DNA of 22,885 nt from a virus. Location of the stretch: the IMG/VR virus record IMGVR_UViG_3300042509_003092, positions 1 to 22,885 of that record; one strand, written 5' to 3'. The position numbers and the translations under genes were made by a program. Within the stretch, counting starts at the first letter, position 1. Every line of letters starts with the position of its first letter. The notes beneath the pieces were generated by a model. That model was not told the DNA's origin. It ran no database searches and saw only the letters and a program-made list of their open reading frames with translations. This document shows positions 6,564 to 15,290 of this stretch, piece after piece.

Positions 6564-6582
6564 TGAGAATGATTCTCATTCC
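6564..6582. promoter_or_regulatory. Fur/Zur-family box 1
   Basis: TGAGAATGATTCTCATTCC contains the perfect 7-1-7 palindrome TGAGAAT-G-ATTCTCA. It matches the Fur-family 7-1-7 consensus TGATAATnATTATCA at 12 of 14 arm positions, with symmetric changes at positions 4 and 12. A further half-site TTCTCA follows at 6585-6590. It lies about 200 bp upstream of the first rightward early gene. Confidence 0.55.
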
Positions 6583-6621: not shown

Positions 6622-6640
6622 TGAGAATGATTCTCATTCC
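6622..6640. promoter_or_regulatory. Fur/Zur-family box 2
   Basis: The 19-bp sequence is identical to the box at 6564-6582 and starts 58 bp later. A -10-like TATGTA follows immediately at 6641-6646, so a protein bound here would cover a rightward promoter. The spacing to a -35-like TTGAGA (6621-6626) is only 14 bp, so the promoter itself is uncertain. Flanking bases of the two copies differ, which argues that the 19-mer itself is what is conserved. Confidence 0.55.
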
Positions 6641-7137: not shown

Positions 7138-7156
7138 ACGTCAAACACCACACCAC
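7138..7156 (+). promoter_or_regulatory. CA-rich start-codon leader element, copy 1
   Basis: ACGTCAAACACCACACCAC ends nine bases before the ATG of the sigma factor gene. No GGAGG-type site is present in the leader. The same core (GTCAA plus ACCACACCAC) recurs at 7773, 8792 (shorter), 10542 and 10791, each time immediately before a start codon. Confidence 0.6.
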
Positions 7157-7165
7157 AAGCACAAC

Positions 7166-7735
7166 ATGGCTAACCGACAGACAAAAACTGATCGACTGAT
7201 CATTGAAAACCTTCCACTCGCCGACAGGCTGGGAGCCAGTGCAGCCAGGCGACTGTGCGGGTTGGCGGAGAAGGATGACTTAATTCAGGAAGCACGAATG
7301 GCGCTAGTTTTAGCTGCCAGAAAATGCGACGAACAAAGAGAACCTACAGCTTACATTATCGCCTCAATTCGCGGAGCTATTCAGCACTACGTAAGGGATA
7401 AAGTCCGTATGGTTCGCGTCTCTCGCCGAGAGCATGAGAAGAGCCGGCCACCATTCGCCCATGCCTCCTTGGATGCCTGCCTGCCGTGCGGCACCCCATT
7501 CGTGGACCTGCTGACCGCTGATCCGGTCACCACCGACCAGGCGGATGAGTCTCCAGAGGAGCTGGAGGCACTGGTGGAACAGTTGCCAGCGGCAGACGCG
7601 GCAGCGCTTCGTCTCACCCTGCTACAGGGCATGTCACTGCGGCAGGCAGGGGAAGCCCTCGGCGTCTCAGTGATGACAGCTCAGCGCAGGAAGGAACGAG
7701 CGGTCAAGGCCATTCGAGAAGCCCTGCAAGCGTGA
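7166..7735 (+). CDS. RNA polymerase sigma factor, sigma-70 family (group 3-like)
   Basis: A 189-residue sigma factor that would redirect host RNA polymerase to phage promoters. Region 2 covers about residues 10-90: LIIENLPLADRL, KDDLIQEARMALVLAARKCD and YIIASIRGAIQHYVRDKVRM, ending VRVSRREHE. This is the pattern of core-binding and -10-recognition segments in SigB/SigF-type factors. Region 4 covers about 132-187, with the helix-turn-helix LRLTLLQGMSLRQAGEALGV followed by SVMTAQRRKERAVKAIREAL. Region 3 appears reduced to a linker. It lies between the membrane/SAP gene and ArdC. The start follows a CA-rich leader. Coexistence with a single-subunit phage RNA polymerase downstream is unusual. Confidence 0.85.
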   Translation: MANRQTKTDRLIIENLPLADRLGASAARRLCGLAEKDDLIQEARMALVLAARKCDEQREPTAYIIASIRGAIQHYVRDKVRMVRVSRREHEKSRPPFAHASLDACLPCGTPFVDLLTADPVTTDQADESPEELEALVEQLPAADAAALRLTLLQGMSLRQAGEALGVSVMTAQRRKERAVKAIREALQA

Positions 7736-7772
7736 GACACGCGGCCCGCCAGAGCCGCACCCAATCCCGGCA

Positions 7773-7792
7773 ACGTCAAAACACCACACCAC
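7773..7792 (+). promoter_or_regulatory. CA-rich start-codon leader element, copy 2
   Basis: ACGTCAAAACACCACACCAC ends three bases before the ATG of the ArdC-like gene. It differs from copy 1 by one extra A. It lies in a 60-bp gap between two genes, so it is not constrained by coding. Confidence 0.6.
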
Positions 7793-7795
7793 GCC

Positions 7796-8743
7796 ATGAC
7801 ATCCACAGCACCACGCAAACGCCGTCAATACGACGGGCCAACGAGCGAGGAAGTTCTAGTCAATAATCTTATTGAATTGATGGAAAGTAGCGACCTTCCG
7901 CCCTGGCGTCGCCCATGGTCTGCCGTCAGTGGTTCCCATCGAAACCTGCTCACCGGGCACGAATACAGGGGCAGCAACCCGATTCTGTTGGAGATTGCAA
8001 GCCTCTGCGGTGGGCATCACCTGCCCCTGTGGCTGGGCGCCAGCCAGGCCAAGCAGCGCGGGTGGTTTCCCAAAAAGGGCACAAAGGCGGCAAGGATTGT
8101 GCGGCCACAACTGAACAGCAGGGAAGAGGAGAATCCTCAGACAGGCGAGAAAGAATTGAAATCATGGGTTAGCTATAAGATCGTGTGCGTTTTCAACGTG
8201 AACGATCTACAGGGAGCCGATGACGCCTCACGGGATTCCCTCGCGGCGGCGATCCTCTCCCAGCTGGATGGCCAGCTTGTGCCTGAGGCCGCAGAGCGCC
8301 ACGATCGAGCCGAGGCCTGCCTGAGTACCTGGGATGTGACGACCACCTGGGGTGGCCAGAAGGCCTACTACTTGCGGTCGTCCGACACGATCCACATGCC
8401 GGCCCGCGAGACGTTCCTCGATCGCGAGGCCTGCTATTCCACCTGGGCCCATGAGACGGCTCACAGCACCGGCCACGAGAGCAGGCTCGCGCGGACCTTT
8501 GGGGTGGTGGGCGAACCGGAATATGCCCGGGAGGAGCTGGTGGCCGAGCTGGCCTGTGTGCTGATCTGCTACCGGCTCCAGGTGGGCACGGAGATGCAGG
8601 ACCACGCGTCCTATCTGAAGGCCTGGGCGGGAATGCTTCGCGATGGCGGGGCGCGCGTGTTGTTCAAGGTGCTGACCGATGCGCGACGCGCGGCAGATCT
8701 GATCTGCCCTGAAGAGGCTCAGGAGGAGACCGCTGAAGGCTGA
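7796..8743 (+). CDS. ArdC-like antirestriction protein (ssDNA-binding domain plus zincin metallopeptidase-like domain)
   Basis: A 315-residue protein. Residues about 15-135 fit the ArdC N-terminal domain (ELMESSDLPPWRRPWSA, then NPILLEIASLCGGHHLPLWL and QAKQRGWFPKKGTKAARIV), which binds single-stranded DNA. Residues about 195-262 fit the zincin-like C-terminal domain: HExxH at 219-223 (HETAH), H227, and the downstream glutamate helix YAREELVAELA (243-253). The metal ligands are all present. ArdC proteins come mainly from plasmids and protect incoming DNA from restriction, and they also occur in phages. The gene lies in the early region after the sigma factor, consistent with defence against host restriction on entry. 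The start is preceded by a CA-rich leader. Confidence 0.88.
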   Translation: MTSTAPRKRRQYDGPTSEEVLVNNLIELMESSDLPPWRRPWSAVSGSHRNLLTGHEYRGSNPILLEIASLCGGHHLPLWLGASQAKQRGWFPKKGTKAARIVRPQLNSREEENPQTGEKELKSWVSYKIVCVFNVNDLQGADDASRDSLAAAILSQLDGQLVPEAAERHDRAEACLSTWDVTTTWGGQKAYYLRSSDTIHMPARETFLDREACYSTWAHETAHSTGHESRLARTFGVVGEPEYAREELVAELACVLICYRLQVGTEMQDHASYLKAWAGMLRDGGARVLFKVLTDARRAADLICPEEAQEETAEG

Positions 8744-8752
8744 AGGCATCTC

Positions 8753-8786
8753 AGGGGGCAACTGCCCCCTCTGCTGCCCTCAGCAG
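8753..8786. other. Two back-to-back perfect hairpins between ArdC and the PolX-like gene
   Basis: AGGGGGC (8753-8759) pairs with GCCCCCT (8764-8770) around AACT. Immediately after, CTGCTG (8771-8776) pairs with CAGCAG (8781-8786) around CCCT. No T-run follows, so this is not a standard intrinsic terminator. An RNA-processing or stability element is possible. Confidence 0.5.
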
Positions 8787-8791
8787 CATTC

Positions 8792-8804
8792 ACGTCAACA
8801 TCAC
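8792..8804 (+). promoter_or_regulatory. CA-rich start-codon leader element, short copy 3
   Basis: ACGTCAACATCAC abuts the ATG at 8805. It keeps the GTCAAC core and the CAC end but is shorter than the other copies. It directly follows the double hairpin. Confidence 0.45.
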
Positions 8805-9338
8805 ATGGCAACAATGAGCAAAAATCAAATACGCCTGCCACTGAATGAGGCAAGGATGATTGCCGAGCGGGTGGTTGCCGAGCTGGAGCCTCACTGTTGG
8901 ATGATCAGCATCGCTGGAAGCATTCGCCGAGAGCGTCCGACCATCGGTGACATCGAGATCGTTTGCGTGCCGCGCCCTTACGACGCCTCGCCGCTGTTTC
9001 AGTCTGGCATCGCCACGGTTGTGAACCAGTGGGAAGCGGTGCGTGGAGAGCTGCCTTGCAAGTACACCCAGCGAAAATTGCCCGAGGGGATGAATCTGGA
9101 CCTGTTCATGGTCAATCCTGAAGGGTGGGGCTTGCAGCTGGCGATCCGCACTGGCTCCGCCAGCTGGTGTCGTGAGGTGCTCGCAAAGGCCTGGGTTCGC
9201 GCAGGATTCCGTTCCAAGGATGGCCTACTGCGCAACAAGCTAGGTGCGGGCACCGTGCAATTTGTTCGCACTGAGCGCGAGCTGTTCGAGATTATCGACC
9301 TGCCGTGGGTTGAGCCTGTAGACCGTGAATTCCCTTAA
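8805..9338 (+). CDS. DNA polymerase X-like nucleotidyltransferase
   Basis: A 177-residue protein with the palm and finger signature of family X polymerases: AGSIRRERPTIGDIEIVCVP (37-56) with the GS...RR motif and the acidic pair D49/E51, the third acid D99 in NLDLFMV, the RTGSASW motif (115-121) for nucleotide binding, and a C-terminal DLPWVEPVDRE (165-175) like the end of Pol beta-type enzymes. It lacks the 8-kDa lyase domain, so it is shorter than repair PolX. Similar short proteins are known in phages. It may fill gaps or extend ends. It is too small and of the wrong family to be the main replicase. The start is ATG 8805 after a CA-rich leader. A second ATG is at 8814. Confidence 0.82.
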   Translation: MATMSKNQIRLPLNEARMIAERVVAELEPHCWMISIAGSIRRERPTIGDIEIVCVPRPYDASPLFQSGIATVVNQWEAVRGELPCKYTQRKLPEGMNLDLFMVNPEGWGLQLAIRTGSASWCREVLAKAWVRAGFRSKDGLLRNKLGAGTVQFVRTERELFEIIDLPWVEPVDREFP

Positions 9339-9354
9339 ATTCAGGAAAACCACA

Positions 9355-9561
9355 ATGCGCACCATTTCAATCACCGTCACGGAAGCAGAGGCCGCAGAGG
9401 CTCTGCCGCTGTTGATGCGACACGCCGAACAACTGAATGAAATGCGAAGCCAGGAAATCATGCATTGCGAGCCAGGCGACGACGCCTGGGAGCGAACAGG
9501 AAAAAGGCTCGCAAGTACAAATAAAATGATCATGCAATTATCTCAGCTGACAGTATCATGA
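9355..9561 (+). CDS. Small hypothetical protein
   Basis: A 68-residue protein starting at ATG 9355. A GTG at 9325 would overlap the previous gene. It begins with a strand-like segment (MRTISITVTEAEAAEALPLL) followed by two helices (MRHAEQLNEMRSQEI and DAWERTGKRLASTNKMIMQL). The start is preceded by AGGAAAACCACA, which combines a weak AGGA and a CA-rich stretch. It overlaps the following gene by ATGA. The family is not recognised. The size and fold pattern resemble small phage-encoded inhibitors or accessory proteins, but nothing specific supports that. Confidence 0.55.
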   Translation: MRTISITVTEAEAAEALPLLMRHAEQLNEMRSQEIMHCEPGDDAWERTGKRLASTNKMIMQLSQLTVS

Positions 9562-9755
9562 CCACCATTCTTGCTGCTTGTGTTTTATGGATTCCCTTGT
9601 ATTGCGTGGGGCTGATAGTTCAAAGCTTTCGAAAGTCGCCTCGGCACGGAAGCAGGCGCCAGCTGGAGGAGCTCGAAATTCAGGCCTGGAACAATCGGCG
9701 CCTGCAGCGGATGCATCGCTTCAACCAGGCCTACCAGCGGCGGAGGAGATCATGA
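9558..9755 (+). CDS. Small single-pass membrane protein, basic tail
   Basis: A 65-residue protein. Residues 3-23 are a membrane helix (TILAACVLWIPLYCVGLIV). The rest is a highly basic tail ending in QRRRRS with many Arg and His, expected on the cytoplasmic side. It is coupled to the preceding gene by an ATGA overlap, and its end overlaps the next start by four bases. The family is not recognised. Confidence 0.5.
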   Translation: MTTILAACVLWIPLYCVGLIVQSFRKSPRHGSRRQLEELEIQAWNNRRLQRMHRFNQAYQRRRRS

Positions 9756-10108
9756 GCCAAGACCTGGCCCGTGGCCTTGCCGAGTGGCTGGGGGAAGTGC
9801 GGAGCGTTGCGCCTGGCCTTTCCCTGGCTGCGCTTGAGGCCTTCCTATGGGTTGGCAGCGGGTCCGACTCCTCGGACGCAGTGCATACCCGAATGGCGGC
9901 CGGTGCGCCCCTGGCCAAGCCGACGGTCACCCGTGCCCTGGGTCTGCTGCGGGGGCGGGGGCAGTGGAGGTCTGACCACTGGGTCAAGCCGCTGGACTGG
10001 CTGGAGGGGAGGCCCCATCCCCACGTTGCGCGAGCGATCGCTTATCGACTGTCCAGGCAGGGGCGGAAGATTCTAGCCTCGCTTAGTACGCTTGTTCTAC
10101 CATCATGA
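9752..10108 (+). CDS. MarR-like winged-helix regulator (first of two)
   Basis: A 118-residue protein with a MarR-like layout: helix LSLAALEAFLWVGSG, HTH region with PLAKPTVTRALGLLRGRG (about 56-73), a wing-like stretch, and a C-terminal segment AIAYRLSRQGRKILASL (about 93-109). The last part mirrors the xxLTxxGxxL motif that closes the wing in MarR proteins. The start has the clearest Shine-Dalgarno site of the early region (GGAGGAGATC before ATG), in contrast to its neighbours with CA-rich leaders. It may control lysogeny or early genes together with the second MarR-like gene. Confidence 0.6.
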   Translation: MSQDLARGLAEWLGEVRSVAPGLSLAALEAFLWVGSGSDSSDAVHTRMAAGAPLAKPTVTRALGLLRGRGQWRSDHWVKPLDWLEGRPHPHVARAIAYRLSRQGRKILASLSTLVLPS

Positions 10109-10383
10109 CCCGGCTTGTGTTTGGCCTTGCCATCCCTCAGGTTTTCCGGCCCGGCTGGGCGGGGGTCACCATCCACGTACGGCAAGGGATGGTTTTCGTA
10201 CACTGGTGGAAGACAGAGCGACACAAGCACCTAGGGCCATGGGTTTTCTGGAGCTACAGAGGTGCATTGGCCTTTTCGCGGTGCTTGATCCGCAGATGCC
10301 TTTGCATTTCATGCAGATATTTCTGCACGTGGCTCAGGGGCCCGCAGAAGGGCTCACGTATCGGGAGCTGGAGGAGGCAATGA
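10105..10383 (+). CDS. Possible small protein overlapping the second MarR-like gene
   Basis: A 92-residue frame that starts with an ATGA overlap on the preceding gene and would fill the 130-bp gap before the next regulator. Its first 45 residues (TRLVFGLAIPQVF, VTIHVRQGMVFVHWW) have protein-like hydrophobic alternation. The remainder overlaps the MarR-like gene and is Cys/Arg/Trp-rich, which looks like an out-of-frame reading. It may be a short gene with a fortuitous tail or no gene at all. Confidence 0.3.
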   Translation: MTRLVFGLAIPQVFRPGWAGVTIHVRQGMVFVHWWKTERHKHLGPWVFWSYRGALAFSRCLIRRCLCISCRYFCTWLRGPQKGSRIGSWRRQ

Positions 10384-10571
10384 GCCTCACCAACTCCAGC
10401 GTCTCCCGAACACTTGATGCCCTGGGAGAGGAGCACAGAAAGGGATATCGAGGCTATGGCCTCATCGAAAGGAAGCCAGACCCTGCCGATTCCCGACGGC
10501 TACGGGTCTTCCTTTCCGCCAGGGGCCACGCCCTGGCCAACCAAATCGTCAACCACACCACACAATCATGA
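10239..10571 (+). CDS. MarR-like winged-helix regulator (second)
   Basis: A 110-residue protein with good MarR features: dimerisation-type N-terminal helices (LELQRCIGLFAVL, MPLHFMQIFLHVAQG), the HTH LTYRELEEAMSLTNSSVSRT with following LDALGEE, a wing with LIERKPDPADSRRLRVFLSA, and the closing ARGHALANQI. The DPxDxRxxxxxLxxxG wing motif is the classic MarR signature. The last codons (NQIVNHTT) run through a 24-bp sequence that is repeated before the integrase. The stop overlaps the next start (ATGA). It is a likely lysogeny or early-gene regulator beside the integrase. Confidence 0.75.
   Translation: MGFLELQRCIGLFAVLDPQMPLHFMQIFLHVAQGPAEGLTYRELEEAMSLTNSSVSRTLDALGEEHRKGYRGYGLIERKPDPADSRRLRVFLSARGHALANQIVNHTTQS
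10542..10565 (+). repeat. 24-bp direct repeat / CA-rich leader, copy A
   Basis: A 24-bp sequence with the core GTCAACCACACCACACAA that is identical to 10791-10814. Here it lies in the last codons of the MarR-like gene and ends two bases before the ATG of the next gene. It carries the same CA-rich leader theme found before the sigma, ArdC and PolX-like genes. Confidence 0.85.
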
Positions 10572-10777
10572 AGACTGTCGAAGACGTTCTCGCCGACACC
10601 GCCGTCGGATGTGGCTTCCACGATTTCGCCGTCGAAGGCGGCACAATCCGAGTCACAACTCAGAAGCTGCGGGCGGCATTGGAAGCTGCCTATGACGAGA
10701 CCAACCCAAACTGGGTTGTGTTTGTTGATATAGAGGAAGGCGATGAGATAGAAGAAGACGACGATTTGAGAATCTGA
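10568..10777 (+). CDS. Small acidic protein
   Basis: A 69-residue protein. The N-terminal part alternates short helices and strands (MKTVEDVLADTAVGCGFHDF). The middle contains TTQKLRAALEAAYDETNPNW. The C-terminus is very acidic (VDIEEGDEIEEDDDLRI), with about ten acidic residues in the last seventeen. Strongly acidic small phage proteins often mimic DNA or inhibit host enzymes, but no family can be named. It lies between two identical 24-bp leader repeats, just upstream of the integrase, and could be a small cassette with its own leader. Confidence 0.55.
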   Translation: MKTVEDVLADTAVGCGFHDFAVEGGTIRVTTQKLRAALEAAYDETNPNWVVFVDIEEGDEIEEDDDLRI

Positions 10778-10790
10778 TTGAGCTGAGCGA

Positions 10791-10814
10791 CAAATCGTCA
10801 ACCACACCACACAA
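10791..10814 (+). repeat. 24-bp direct repeat / CA-rich leader, copy B
   Basis: This copy is identical over 24 bp to 10542-10565, but here it is non-coding and lies four bases before the GTG start of the integrase. The conservation outside a coding context argues that the sequence itself matters. Confidence 0.85.
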
Positions 10815-10818
10815 GACA

Positions 10819-11948: not shown

Positions 11949-11990
<42 letters not shown>

Positions 11991-12003
11991 TTTCTCAGCC
12001 GTG

Positions 12004-12077
12004 CACCCCTGCAGCATTGCCCACCAGTACGGCGCCGAGCGCCTGAGCAGCGCCTGATCGCCATCTCTGCAGGGGTG
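12004..12077. other. Structured segment with 11-bp perfect inverted repeat
   Basis: CACCCCTGCAG (12004-12014) and CTGCAGGGGTG (12067-12077) are perfect inverted copies. Inside them are a GGCGC-CGA-GCGCC hairpin (12031-12043) and a direct repeat of GCGCCTGA (12039 and 12050). The segment lies between the attachment core and the RNA polymerase gene. It may hold further integrase arm sites or fold as the 5' leader of the polymerase mRNA. Confidence 0.5.
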
Positions 12078-12115
12078 GAGCAGAATTGCTGCGTCCGGCA
12101 CCACACCAGGCAGCA

Positions 12116-14500
12116 ATGTCAGCATCACGCAGCGCGTCCACCCGCGAACAGGAAGGGCGAGAGAGGCACGAGGAACAACGGAGTCGAGAGCGAATAGCGA
12201 ATACCGAAAGCTCCCTGCGAGCGGCTGGAAGAGAAACAAGAACGGCCGCTGGGCGAAAGGTTTTCCGAGACGCCGCCACTCCCCTGGCGCGAGCACTCGA
12301 AAACCTGCTGGCGGAGAACCTCCAGAACCCGGTGGCCGGGGTCGGCCATGCGGCGCTGGATCTGGTGGCCCGCTTCAGACACCCGAATTATGTGGCGGTG
12401 ACCGCCCTGCGGGTGGTCCTGGACCAAATCTCAGGGGCGAGGCCCTACACCGCCCTGGCGATCCGGATTGGGCAGGCCATCGAGAGCGAGCTCAAGGGTG
12501 AGGCCCTTGTGCATGCCGCGCCCCAGCTGACCACCTCGATCCAGCGGCGCTACGGCCCGCGCGCCGTTCTGAAGGAGCGGGTCGCTGCCCGGGTGGCACC
12601 GATGAACCACCACGAACCATGGTCATCGCGGGGACACGCGCAAGCCGGGGCCCTGATGCTCCAGCTCATGGAGCGCATCGGCCTGATTGAAACGACGCTG
12701 GCGACCACCGGCACCAAGCGACCGCGAATGGTGGTGCCCTCCACGGAGGTCATCGCCCTGGCCGAGGGTGTGCACGACCAGTTCTGGGCGCCGAGCCGTG
12801 GGCCAATGGTGGTGCCACCACAGGATTGGTCTGGTTTGACCGGCGGAGGCCACCTGTCCGGGGGGTGGCTGGTGCGAGATCGATCCTGCGAAACCCAGGA
12901 GCTCCACAACCGGTTTGACCGACAGGCCATTCAGCGGTTCGGTCAGATCGCCAACGTGCAGCAAGGCGTTCCCCTCTGGGTTGATCCGGAGATGGTGTCT
13001 CTTGCCATTCAGGCCTGGGAGAACGGGGGCCTCGGGTTGTTCAAGGTGGATCGGGCGCCGGCGCCACTCCCGCCAACGCCCCCACAGGATGCGCCGAAGG
13101 AGGTGTGGACTGCTTGGAAGCGGGCCGCCGCCGCGCACCATGCGGATCTGCGGGAGAACGTGGGCCGACGGGTGCGGATTTCCCGGGGCCTGCGGGAACT
13201 GGGGGAGCTGGCTGGCCGGGAGATCTACCAAGCCCACTGGTTTGACGGACGGGGCCGTCTCTACACCAGGAACAGGCACGCCTCCACCCAGGGGCAGGAC
13301 GTTGAGAAGGGGTGCATCGCGTTCGCGAAGAACTGGGCTGCCTCCGATGGAGCTGATCTCTCCACCTTGGCAGAAGAAGCCTGCCGGCGCCATGGATCGC
13401 CAGTCACCTTGTCGCTTCATGTCGGGAGGCTGGACAGCCCGTTGGACCACCTTGAGCTGTGGCGCGACGCCAAAGACCCGTGGCAATTTCTTCAGGCCGC
13501 GCGGGCTTATGCCAAGCGGAGCCGAGGTTGTTTCACGAGGAACACCCCTGGCCGCCTGGATCAGACCTGCTCGGGCTGCGGGATTATCGCCGCGCTCACG
13601 CGGGATCGCTGGCTGGCAAGGCAAACCAACGTCATAGGGGACGAGGTGTCCGATCTGTACCTCACCCTGGCCCGGAAGCTGGAGGAGCTGCTCACCGCGG
13701 TGTTGCACACCTCGGCGCCGGGCACGGAAGACTTTCGTTGGGCGGAGATGTTTCTCCAGCTCGGCATCACCAGATCCACGGTGAAGCCCATCGTTCTGGC
13801 CCTGCCCTACGGGGGCCAGCGGCTGGGGATGGTTGGGGCGTTCGAGGACTACCTTTCCGCTGCCATTGGCTGGCAGGACCCGGCGGTCTACGTGGACCGA
13901 GTCTCGCGCCCATCCGCTTGGCTGGCCAAGCAGTTCAGCAAGATCCTGCAGGAGGACATGGGGTCGGCCCTGGCCTTCCGGCGGTGGGCGAGGGATCTGG
14001 TCAAGGCTGTGATTCCGGTCACGGATTCAGCCATTCAGTGGCGGTCCCCATCGGGGTGGCCGATGCGGCTGGGTGCCACGAAATCCAGCGAGACGGTGGT
14101 GCGCACCGAGTTTTTCGGTGTCGCTCGATTGATGACCCTGCAGGAGGAAGACCCCGGGGCAGAGCTGAGCGCCCTGGCCACGGCGGGGAGCGCCGCAGCC
14201 AACATCGTGCACGGCTTGGATGCGGCGGTGGTGCACTTGGCTGTTCGGCGAGTGCGGGGGCCAATGCTGACGAACCACGACTGCTTCGCGGTGCCATGGC
14301 CTCAAACCGGGGAGCTGCACCAGGAGCTTCTGCGGACGTTCCGCCAAACGATGGAAGAGGCGGTGGCTGAGTTGCTGGGGCAGGTCGAAGAGGGATGCAG
14401 GGGTGCAGTGTCGGATTTCCCAGGCCTGCCAGCGTTTCCATTTGCGGGAGAGCCATGGGCAGAGGGAGAACTGGCAAGCAACCCGGCCATGTATGGATGA
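12116..14500 (+). CDS. Single-subunit DNA-dependent RNA polymerase (T7 gp1-like)
   Basis: About 794 residues from the ATG at 12116 (a TTG at 12086 would add ten). T7 RNA polymerase has 883. The palm and finger motifs are visible: HWFDGRGRLYTRNR (T7 DWRGRVYA equivalent), the first catalytic Asp in RLDQTCSGCGI (D482, T7 D537 equivalent), the nucleotide-binding helix ITRSTVKPIVLALPYGG with K557 and Y565 (T7 K631 and Y639), and the second catalytic Asp in NHDCFAVP (D722, T7 D812). The N-terminal domain, which contacts promoters in T7, is shorter and very basic at the start. The ATG follows a degenerate CA-rich leader (CACCACACCAGGCAGCA). The gene lies just after the attachment region and before SSB, as in T7-like cyanophages, and would transcribe middle and late genes. 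Confidence 0.93.
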   Translation: MSASRSASTREQEGRERHEEQRSRERIANTESSLRAAGRETRTAAGRKVFRDAATPLARALENLLAENLQNPVAGVGHAALDLVARFRHPNYVAVTALRVVLDQISGARPYTALAIRIGQAIESELKGEALVHAAPQLTTSIQRRYGPRAVLKERVAARVAPMNHHEPWSSRGHAQAGALMLQLMERIGLIETTLATTGTKRPRMVVPSTEVIALAEGVHDQFWAPSRGPMVVPPQDWSGLTGGGHLSGGWLVRDRSCETQELHNRFDRQAIQRFGQIANVQQGVPLWVDPEMVSLAIQAWENGGLGLFKVDRAPAPLPPTPPQDAPKEVWTAWKRAAAAHHADLRENVGRRVRISRGLRELGELAGREIYQAHWFDGRGRLYTRNRHASTQGQDVEKGCIAFAKNWAASDGADLSTLAEEACRRHGSPVTLSLHVGRLDSPLDHLELWRDAKDPWQFLQAARAYAKRSRGCFTRNTPGRLDQTCSGCGIIAALTRDRWLARQTNVIGDEVSDLYLTLARKLEELLTAVLHTSAPGTEDFRWAEMFLQLGITRSTVKPIVLALPYGGQRLGMVGAFEDYLSAAIGWQDPAVYVDRVSRPSAWLAKQFSKILQEDMGSALAFRRWARDLVKAVIPVTDSAIQWRSPSGWPMRLGATKSSETVVRTEFFGVARLMTLQEEDPGAELSALATAGSAAANIVHGLDAAVVHLAVRRVRGPMLTNHDCFAVPWPQTGELHQELLRTFRQTMEEAVAELLGQVEEGCRGAVSDFPGLPAFPFAGEPWAEGELASNPAMYG

Positions 14501-14546: not shown

Positions 14547-15290
14547 ATGGCCAAGACGATGATGAAAACCCCGATCGGGATGCTCCAGTGGGCCCAGATC
14601 CTTGAGCCCACCAAGGCCCTGGACGCGGACAAGCCCGATCTGTGGAAAGTCGATTTCGTTACCGAGTGGAACGAGGCGGCATACAGCCTGACCCAGGCGC
14701 TTGAGGGCGTCTACATGCAGGAGTTTGGCAGCAACAGCAATCCAGCCGAACACGCATGGCCGTTCAAGATGGAAGTCTTGGATGGGAAGGACACGGGCAA
14801 CATTGTCTTCACGTTTAAGAGGAACACTATCAACAGCAACGGGAGGCCGGTCTCACGGCCAATAGTCGTGGATTCCCAGAGGAATCCCTGGCCAAAAGAA
14901 TTATTGATTGGGAATGGATCTCATGGCATCGTTGCCTTTTCTCCGTTTACGTGGAGGAACAAGCTCAACAAATGCGGAGTGTCTTTATACCTAGACGGCG
15001 TTCAGGTATTGAGCCATGTGCCCTATGAATCGTTTGACGCCGAGTCCACCTTCGACGTGGTCGAGGGCGGATTCGTTGCGCCACAAGGCGACATGTTTGG
15101 CCAGGCGGCACCGGAACCCCAGGTTGCTGCCGCTGCTCCCACCTGTCCAGCTCCCACCCGTCCAGCTCCAGCGCGTCCAGCTCCTGCTCGCCCAACACCA
15201 GCTCCCACCCGCCTGCCAGCCCCCTCTGGGCAGCCGCAGCCATGGTCGGTAGTTGCTGGCCCAGCTTCCGATGAAGAGGTGGGCCCCTGA
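14547..15290 (+). CDS. Single-stranded DNA-binding protein (T7 gp2.5-like)
   Basis: A 247-residue protein. The N-terminal 175 residues have the gp2.5-type OB-fold layout: KTPIGMLQWAQILEPTKALD near the start, aromatic positions in WPFKMEVLDG, FTFKRNTINSNGRPVSRPIV, and later AFSPFTWRNKLNKCGVSLYL. From about residue 190 the protein is a Pro/Ala/Arg/Thr-rich linker with repeated PAPARPAP units, ending SDEEVGP. T7 gp2.5 ends in a strongly acidic tail with a terminal Phe that contacts the polymerase and helicase-primase, whereas here only three acidic residues remain. The start at 14547 is preceded by CAGACACCACTC, resembling the CA-rich leaders. It is next to the RNA polymerase, as in T7. Confidence 0.85.
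   Translation: MAKTMMKTPIGMLQWAQILEPTKALDADKPDLWKVDFVTEWNEAAYSLTQALEGVYMQEFGSNSNPAEHAWPFKMEVLDGKDTGNIVFTFKRNTINSNGRPVSRPIVVDSQRNPWPKELLIGNGSHGIVAFSPFTWRNKLNKCGVSLYLDGVQVLSHVPYESFDAESTFDVVEGGFVAPQGDMFGQAAPEPQVAAAAPTCPAPTRPAPARPAPARPTPAPTRLPAPSGQPQPWSVVAGPASDEEVGP

Follow-up and report, generated by a model that had tools for sequence, protein, structure and literature searches.

The 22,885-nt stretch analysed here (the window; a 22.9-kb virus record, IMGVR_UViG_3300042509_003092) contains genes for a single-subunit RNA polymerase (start 12116), an integrase (10819), a portal and a terminase, and several of its genes, presumed early from gene order, begin directly after a leader made of A and C only (the A/C leader). 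The nearest isolate is the freshwater Synechococcus phage S-SRP02 (Autographiviridae; listed host Synechococcus sp. SR-C1), with protein identities of 54% for the terminase, 40% for the portal and 33% for the polymerase, and among virus contigs L044 (IMG/VR 3300008113_000336) comes closest, with 92% for the polymerase and 98% for the integrase. The window would represent a temperate T7-like phage of cyanobacteria, and the lineage formed by this virus and its relatives consists of T7-like phages, most likely temperate ones of freshwater cyanobacteria.

A/C leaders in the window

A sequence-only reading of this DNA had described a GTCAA-type element directly before five starts, with degenerate copies before four others. 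With at most one mismatch, CACCACACCAC has five matches in the window, all on the + strand and all 5' of starts, against 0.38 expected, and none of 100 shuffles reached five; the repeat is real and non-random. Only four + strand stretches made of A and C alone reach 15 nt or more, and these are the leaders of 7166, 7796, 10568 and 10819, at 9, 3, 2 and 4 nt from the start, respectively; the single such run on the - strand does not precede a start. The element is strong at these four starts and weak at the fifth, 8805, which has a hairpin module just upstream. Leaders 4 and 5 (Table 1) are part of an exact 24-bp direct repeat, CAAATCGTCAACCACACCACACAA, and leader 1 is kept in L044 with a diverged spacer.

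The degenerate copies did not rise clearly above background. Their A/C runs measure 9 nt at 9355 (with AGGA upstream), 10 at 12116, about 7 at 14547 and 9 at the leftward start 5304, which is near chance, as a run of at least 9 nt ending no more than 14 nt away is found at 2.2% of all window positions and one of at least 7 nt at 7.4%. The genes of relatives downstream of the integrase, the region of 12116 and 14547, lack the A/C-leader trait, and CACCACACCAG, before the RNA polymerase start, probably lies outside the leader class.

The leader across relatives

An integrase profile search led to 79 fetched loci, and leader statistics were obtained on 55 dereplicated contigs; since the contigs are related, all p-values are nominal. 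Genes in the relatives were called with a home-made codon-score caller, blind to the leader, which placed 34 of the 38 S-SRP02 starts as annotated; naive longest-open-reading-frame (ORF) calling had been dropped, as it gave wrong starts in GC-rich DNA and undercounted. An A/C-only leader of at least 12 nt was found before early genes in 51 of the 55 contigs. Such runs precede 42 of 52 integrase starts and 97 of 190 genes lying 1.5-4.5 kb upstream of the integrase, as well as 12 of 191 in the last 1.5 kb, 4 of 630 downstream of it, none of 145 in the -10 to -6 kb bin and 6 of 205 minus-strand genes. When only genes with a real intergenic gap are counted, the leader is present at 72 of 165 early genes, 26 of 31 integrase genes and none of 143 post-integrase genes. 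Shine-Dalgarno (SD) sites show the opposite trend, being found at 47-52% of genes 5-10 kb downstream; the A/C-leader genes do not belong to the SD class, as only 9 of 151 have a purine-rich stretch complementary to the anti-SD at 5-20 nt upstream of the start. The idea of an early-gene set sharing a start-adjacent, CA-rich signal of non-SD type is thereby upheld across relatives. In the control phages, A/C leaders of 12 nt or longer are absent from T7, LUZ100 and S-CBP2, and P60 has two; marine S38-C3 has three together with one hairpin-module match, and most of the other marine cyanophages that were checked lack them. A scan of viral contigs for the exact motif returned 42 stretches, and the one inspected was the near relative L027/L044.

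The integrase starts of most of the 79 loci follow an A/C-only tract whose sequence differs among loci. Each phage has its own repeated leader dialect, in which composition is kept and sequence drifts; S-SRP02, for instance, repeats CCAACAACCACCACC before its early-gene starts, including that of the integrase. What the sequence-only reading took for a conserved sequence, GTCAA..ACCACACCAC, is one phage's dialect, and across relatives the conserved property is the restriction to A and C. In orthologous leaders, exchanges between A and C make up 48% of substitutions versus 11% at third codon positions (pairs not independent). The tract at the start is CA-rich and unstructured, a trait of S1- or ACA-type enhancers, and the predicted unpaired value of the start region is 0.73 for A/C-leader genes versus 0.46 for late genes, falling to 0.45 after late-gene leaders are swapped in.

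Two individual leaders were also recorded. The integrase leader of L061 (from 108) and L121 is a microsatellite-like (ACC)n tract of about 40 nt, whose length changes could tune expression. In S-SRP02 (L092 12841-12873) an A/C leader precedes ATG 12873, and this codon lies upstream of the start annotated at 12912, which suggests that the annotated start is mis-placed.

The stop-anchored hairpin and gene gain and loss

Two features had been overlooked by the sequence-only reading, a hairpin module anchored at a stop codon and the breakpoints of gene gain and loss. Upstream of many leaders lies a bipartite hairpin of about 44 nt that begins at the TGA stop of the preceding gene. After one mismatch come a stem of 4-7 bp, a small internal loop and a second stem of 5-8 bp; the terminal loop often has a UNCG cap, and the element closes with TCA. 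The structure-model search found only one module in the window (54.7 bits, E 5e-10, spanning 8741-8796; E 1e-8 with the sequence-only model; fold z -3.74). The first seeds (alignment A2, 27 sequences, 94% paired) were biased because they had been picked by a pairing descriptor, and the counts were redone on matches of a sequence-only model, itself built from the same seeds. This model gave 113 matches, in 97 distinct rows of which 92.4% of positions in the structure are paired, with 212 two-sided changes versus 79 in shuffles, and slid versions of the structure on the same rows dropped to 25-55% pairing.

The structure model gave 151 matches, of which 150 were aligned, 140 of these on the + strand. 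Of the unique + strand modules, 122 in number, 107 begin with TGA, and in 97 of the 107 this codon ends an ORF of 40 aa or more; in 84 of the 122 the next start is preceded by an A/C run of 12 nt or longer. Where an integrase was placed, 115 of 116 modules sit 1-4 kb upstream of it. The integrase leaders displayed keep the A/C tract without the hairpin. The 3' arm can re-pair, over at least 5 bp, with the sequence after TCA in 89 of the 97 modules with a usable TCA, versus 24.7 expected. Because G-U pairs are kept in the stems and UNCG loops occur in 37 of 120 modules, an action as RNA is favoured by these sequence features. Rfam at the gathering threshold had no match to the module, its only match being a tRNA, found in seven sources at the putative att site. 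The text of the S-SRP02 paper has no occurrence of "promoter", "motif" or "ribosom", and a literature search of titles and abstracts returned nothing on point for such a phage start element; the module therefore appears undescribed within the library searched.

In L044 the 69-aa gene between the direct repeats is missing and one fused copy of the 24-bp repeat remains, and at weak leader 3 the start codon is the insertion point of an extra gene. Of the 22 gene-size indels in close pairs, 18 break no more than 16 nt from an element region, where 13% are expected; three L132 rows had been dropped from this count as duplicates of L133, and some of the matching element regions are A/C repeats in the first codons. 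The modules double as seams for whole-gene gain and loss. L044 also has, at about 9040-9650, between the integrase and the tRNA piece, an extra gene that is not in the window and whose start follows GAAGCAACCACA; by analogy with the S-SRP02 gene order it is a putative KilA-N gene.

Table 1. Leaders, hairpin and associated features of the window
Feature	Positions	Strand	Remarks
A/C leader 1, GTCAAACACCACACCAC	7140..7156	+	before sigma-factor-like gene, start 7166; sigma-70 domains
A/C leader 2, GTCAAAACACCACACCAC	7775..7792	+	before ArdC-like antirestriction gene, start 7796; ArdcN domain
Stop-anchored bipartite hairpin	8741..8782	+	TGA stop of the ArdC gene, arms, internal loop, apical stem GGGGGC-AACT-GCCCCC, TCA
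Downstream arm GCAGC	8783..8787	+	can pair with the hairpin 3' arm (GCTGC) instead; from alignment A2 and pair counts
Weak leader 3, GTCAACATCAC	8794..8804	+	before ATG 8805 of nucleotidyltransferase-like gene; T interrupts the run
Direct repeat copy 1 with A/C leader 4 (run 10550-10565)	10542..10565	+	before ATG 10568; inside the 3' end of a MarR-like ORF
69-aa gene between the two direct repeats	10568..10777	+	exactly absent in L044
Direct repeat copy 2 with A/C leader 5 (run 10799-10814)	10791..10814	+	before integrase start GTG 10819
Weak CACCACACCAG	12099..12109	+	before RNA polymerase start 12116; polymerase genes of relatives have no leader

Other features surround the early genes. The gene at 7166-7735 encodes an early sigma-70-type factor with regions 2 and 4, whose sole relative found in viral contigs is on the contig of L044. 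Upstream of the first early gene, TGAGAATGATTCTCA is present in two copies (6564-6582 and 6622-6640) as a perfect 7-1-7 inverted repeat with a layout resembling a Fur-box; it is kept in L044 (3306, 3364), was not found in the other contigs scanned, and is a possible operator on the early promoter. A partial tRNA-Leu(UAA) gene downstream of the integrase (window 11949-12009; L044 9756-9816; 29.2 bits with Rfam tRNA, none with ARAGORN) is probably the attP core. A search of genome contigs for the tRNA-Leu half-site gave 19 matching stretches, none with a cyanobacterial title, and is uninformative on the host.

Interpretation of the leader and hairpin

Here it is proposed, with a probability of about 0.6, that the A/C-only 5' leader is an SD-independent translation start site for early genes of this T7-like phage lineage. 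Because the leader cannot fold on itself and consists of ACA/ACC repeats, the start codon would be left open for binding of the 30S subunit, possibly via ribosomal protein S1, whereas SD sites are more frequent at the later genes of the same phages. The leader is often the second part of a module, which runs from the hairpin at the stop of the previous gene through the A/C leader to the start codon. Insulation or processing of an early polycistronic mRNA, presumably transcribed as one operon, is the most likely role of the hairpin, which may be a processing or stability site, and the repeated modules would provide the homology by which early genes are gained and lost. The class restriction, the predicted openness of the start and the A-C substitution bias make a translation signal, one of the functions first suggested for the element, its best reading.

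The start regions of cyanobacterial non-SD genes are weakly structured, with C just upstream of the start and both C and A near -15 (Nakagawa et al. 2017, PMC5397173), and ACA motifs near the ribosome-binding site enhance translation in enteric bacteria, perhaps via S1 (Yang et al. 2014, PMC3879156); an SD-independent leader, the most economical reading, is in line with both. The A/C leader shares with the cyanobacterial starts the C directly upstream, the C and A near -15 and the weak structure around the start, but there these are a statistical bias over many genes and here the A/C-only tract is near-absolute in one gene class. With the ACA and CA-repeat enhancers it shares an ACA/CA-rich tract near the start and a proposed role in initiation; however, those work with an SD on single host genes, whereas here the tract would replace the SD and mark a class of phage genes. 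Cyanobacterial rbcS needs S1 rather than an SD, according to the title of Mutsuda and Sugiura 2006 as cited in PMC6847405.

Several points weigh against this proposal. The A/C leader is missing from about half of those early genes that have an intergenic gap, the genes and starts in relatives are predictions of the home-made caller (with the agreement at 34 of 38 starts given above), the tests are not independent owing to the relatedness of the contigs, S1 is brought in by analogy alone, and the similarity of leaders within one phage could point to a specific binder. Such a binder, a phage or host RNA-binding regulator or a small RNA controlling the early genes as a set, would explain why each phage has its own repeated dialect, and the small RNA GcvB can silence ACA enhancers (PMC3879156). 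The dialects can be explained by recombination between modules as well, and no sequence is conserved across relatives; as only the A/C composition is kept, with drift between A and C that is unexpected for one specific site, the sequence-specific form of the regulator that had been suggested for the early genes is weakened and the whole explanation is unlikely.

The hairpin offers a different explanation. RNase III sites reportedly lie between the early genes of T7, as Dunn and Studier are said to have described in 1983. The module could mainly be an mRNA processing site of this kind, in which host RNase III cuts the hairpin and the A/C tract serves as an open 5' untranslated region, and this is a possible, if minority, reading; of similar standing is the addition that the refolded 3' arm and downstream arm form a 5' cap against 5'-end-dependent decay by RNase J. 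As in T7, irregular hairpins, here of about 20 bp and with strong covariation, lie between early genes of an Autographiviridae phage, the alternative pairing of the 3' arm is in excess as given above, and cyanobacteria have RNase III and RNase J. Unlike the T7 sites, the hairpin is anchored on the stop codon, is followed by an A/C leader and has a 3' arm with a second possible partner. Against processing, the displayed integrase leaders are without the hairpin, the window has only one module, the internal loop is small and symmetric, and cleavage is putative. Processing is compatible with an SD-independent leader. A more tentative view joins the two, with a bistable hairpin and the SD-free A/C-only leader acting as a lineage-wide RNA punctuation module that would give early genes a distinct translation mode. 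The hairpin contains the upstream stop codon, and in the intact transcript its 3' arm would pair with the 5' arm; once a terminating ribosome covers the 5' arm, or cleavage takes it away, the 3' arm would re-pair with the downstream arm, and the phage could later shut off the early mode, e.g., via S1-dependent initiation.

Two further explanations remain. The repeats could primarily be recombination linkers for early-gene cassettes, their position before starts being incidental, as the excess of indel breaks at element regions and the loss in L044 of the gene between exact repeats would fit; this is very unlikely, as it leaves the A/C-only composition, the tight adjacency to starts and the absence downstream of the integrase unexplained, and the element is present at the integrase, a fixed gene. 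Least probable is a DNA or transcription signal, such as a stoperator-like repressor site, a leaderless-mRNA promoter, an intrinsic terminator or a Rho site. The repetition and shared orientation of the intergenic sites in a phage with an integrase, hairpins resembling terminator stems and a C-rich, G-poor RNA suited to Rho agree with it, but the tract has neither palindrome nor conserved sequence and G-U pairs are retained in the hairpin. A terminator and promoter scan of the window gave no matches at the elements and counts near the shuffle level, and intrinsic terminators (GC stem, then T run) were rejected on the same grounds, no T run following the hairpin. The Rho RNA-binding domain was matched in 9 of 14 control genomes and not in Synechococcus elongatus, although these controls may differ from the actual host.

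The nearest described kind of element is the Start-Associated Sequences (SAS/ESAS) of cluster K mycobacteriophages, short asymmetric repeats of mostly one orientation just upstream of many gene starts, half of them with an extra upstream inverted repeat whose consensus varies by subcluster, and with function unknown (Pope et al. 2011, PMC3203893). In the window and its relatives the element is likewise asymmetric, of single orientation and directly 5' of gene starts. SAS have a fixed 13-mer, GGGATAGGAGCCC, with GGAG, whereas here the tract holds only A and C, is free in sequence and has no SD, and the hairpin, unlike the inverted repeat, starts at the upstream stop codon. The A/C module works like SAS but is not a member because the defining 13-mer is absent.

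These results suggest that early and late genes of one phage genome use different translation-start codes, A/C-only without SD versus SD, the early code being held as composition while its sequence drifts. If true, SD-independent initiation in cyanobacteria could be tested directly with such natural, repeated and portable leaders, which would also yield a compact expression part, and they may provide phages with a route to separate early from late protein synthesis. A concrete mechanism is also offered for the rapid turnover of small early genes in phages, in which every gene would come with a start module of its own and the repeats of the module would serve as seams for gain and loss.

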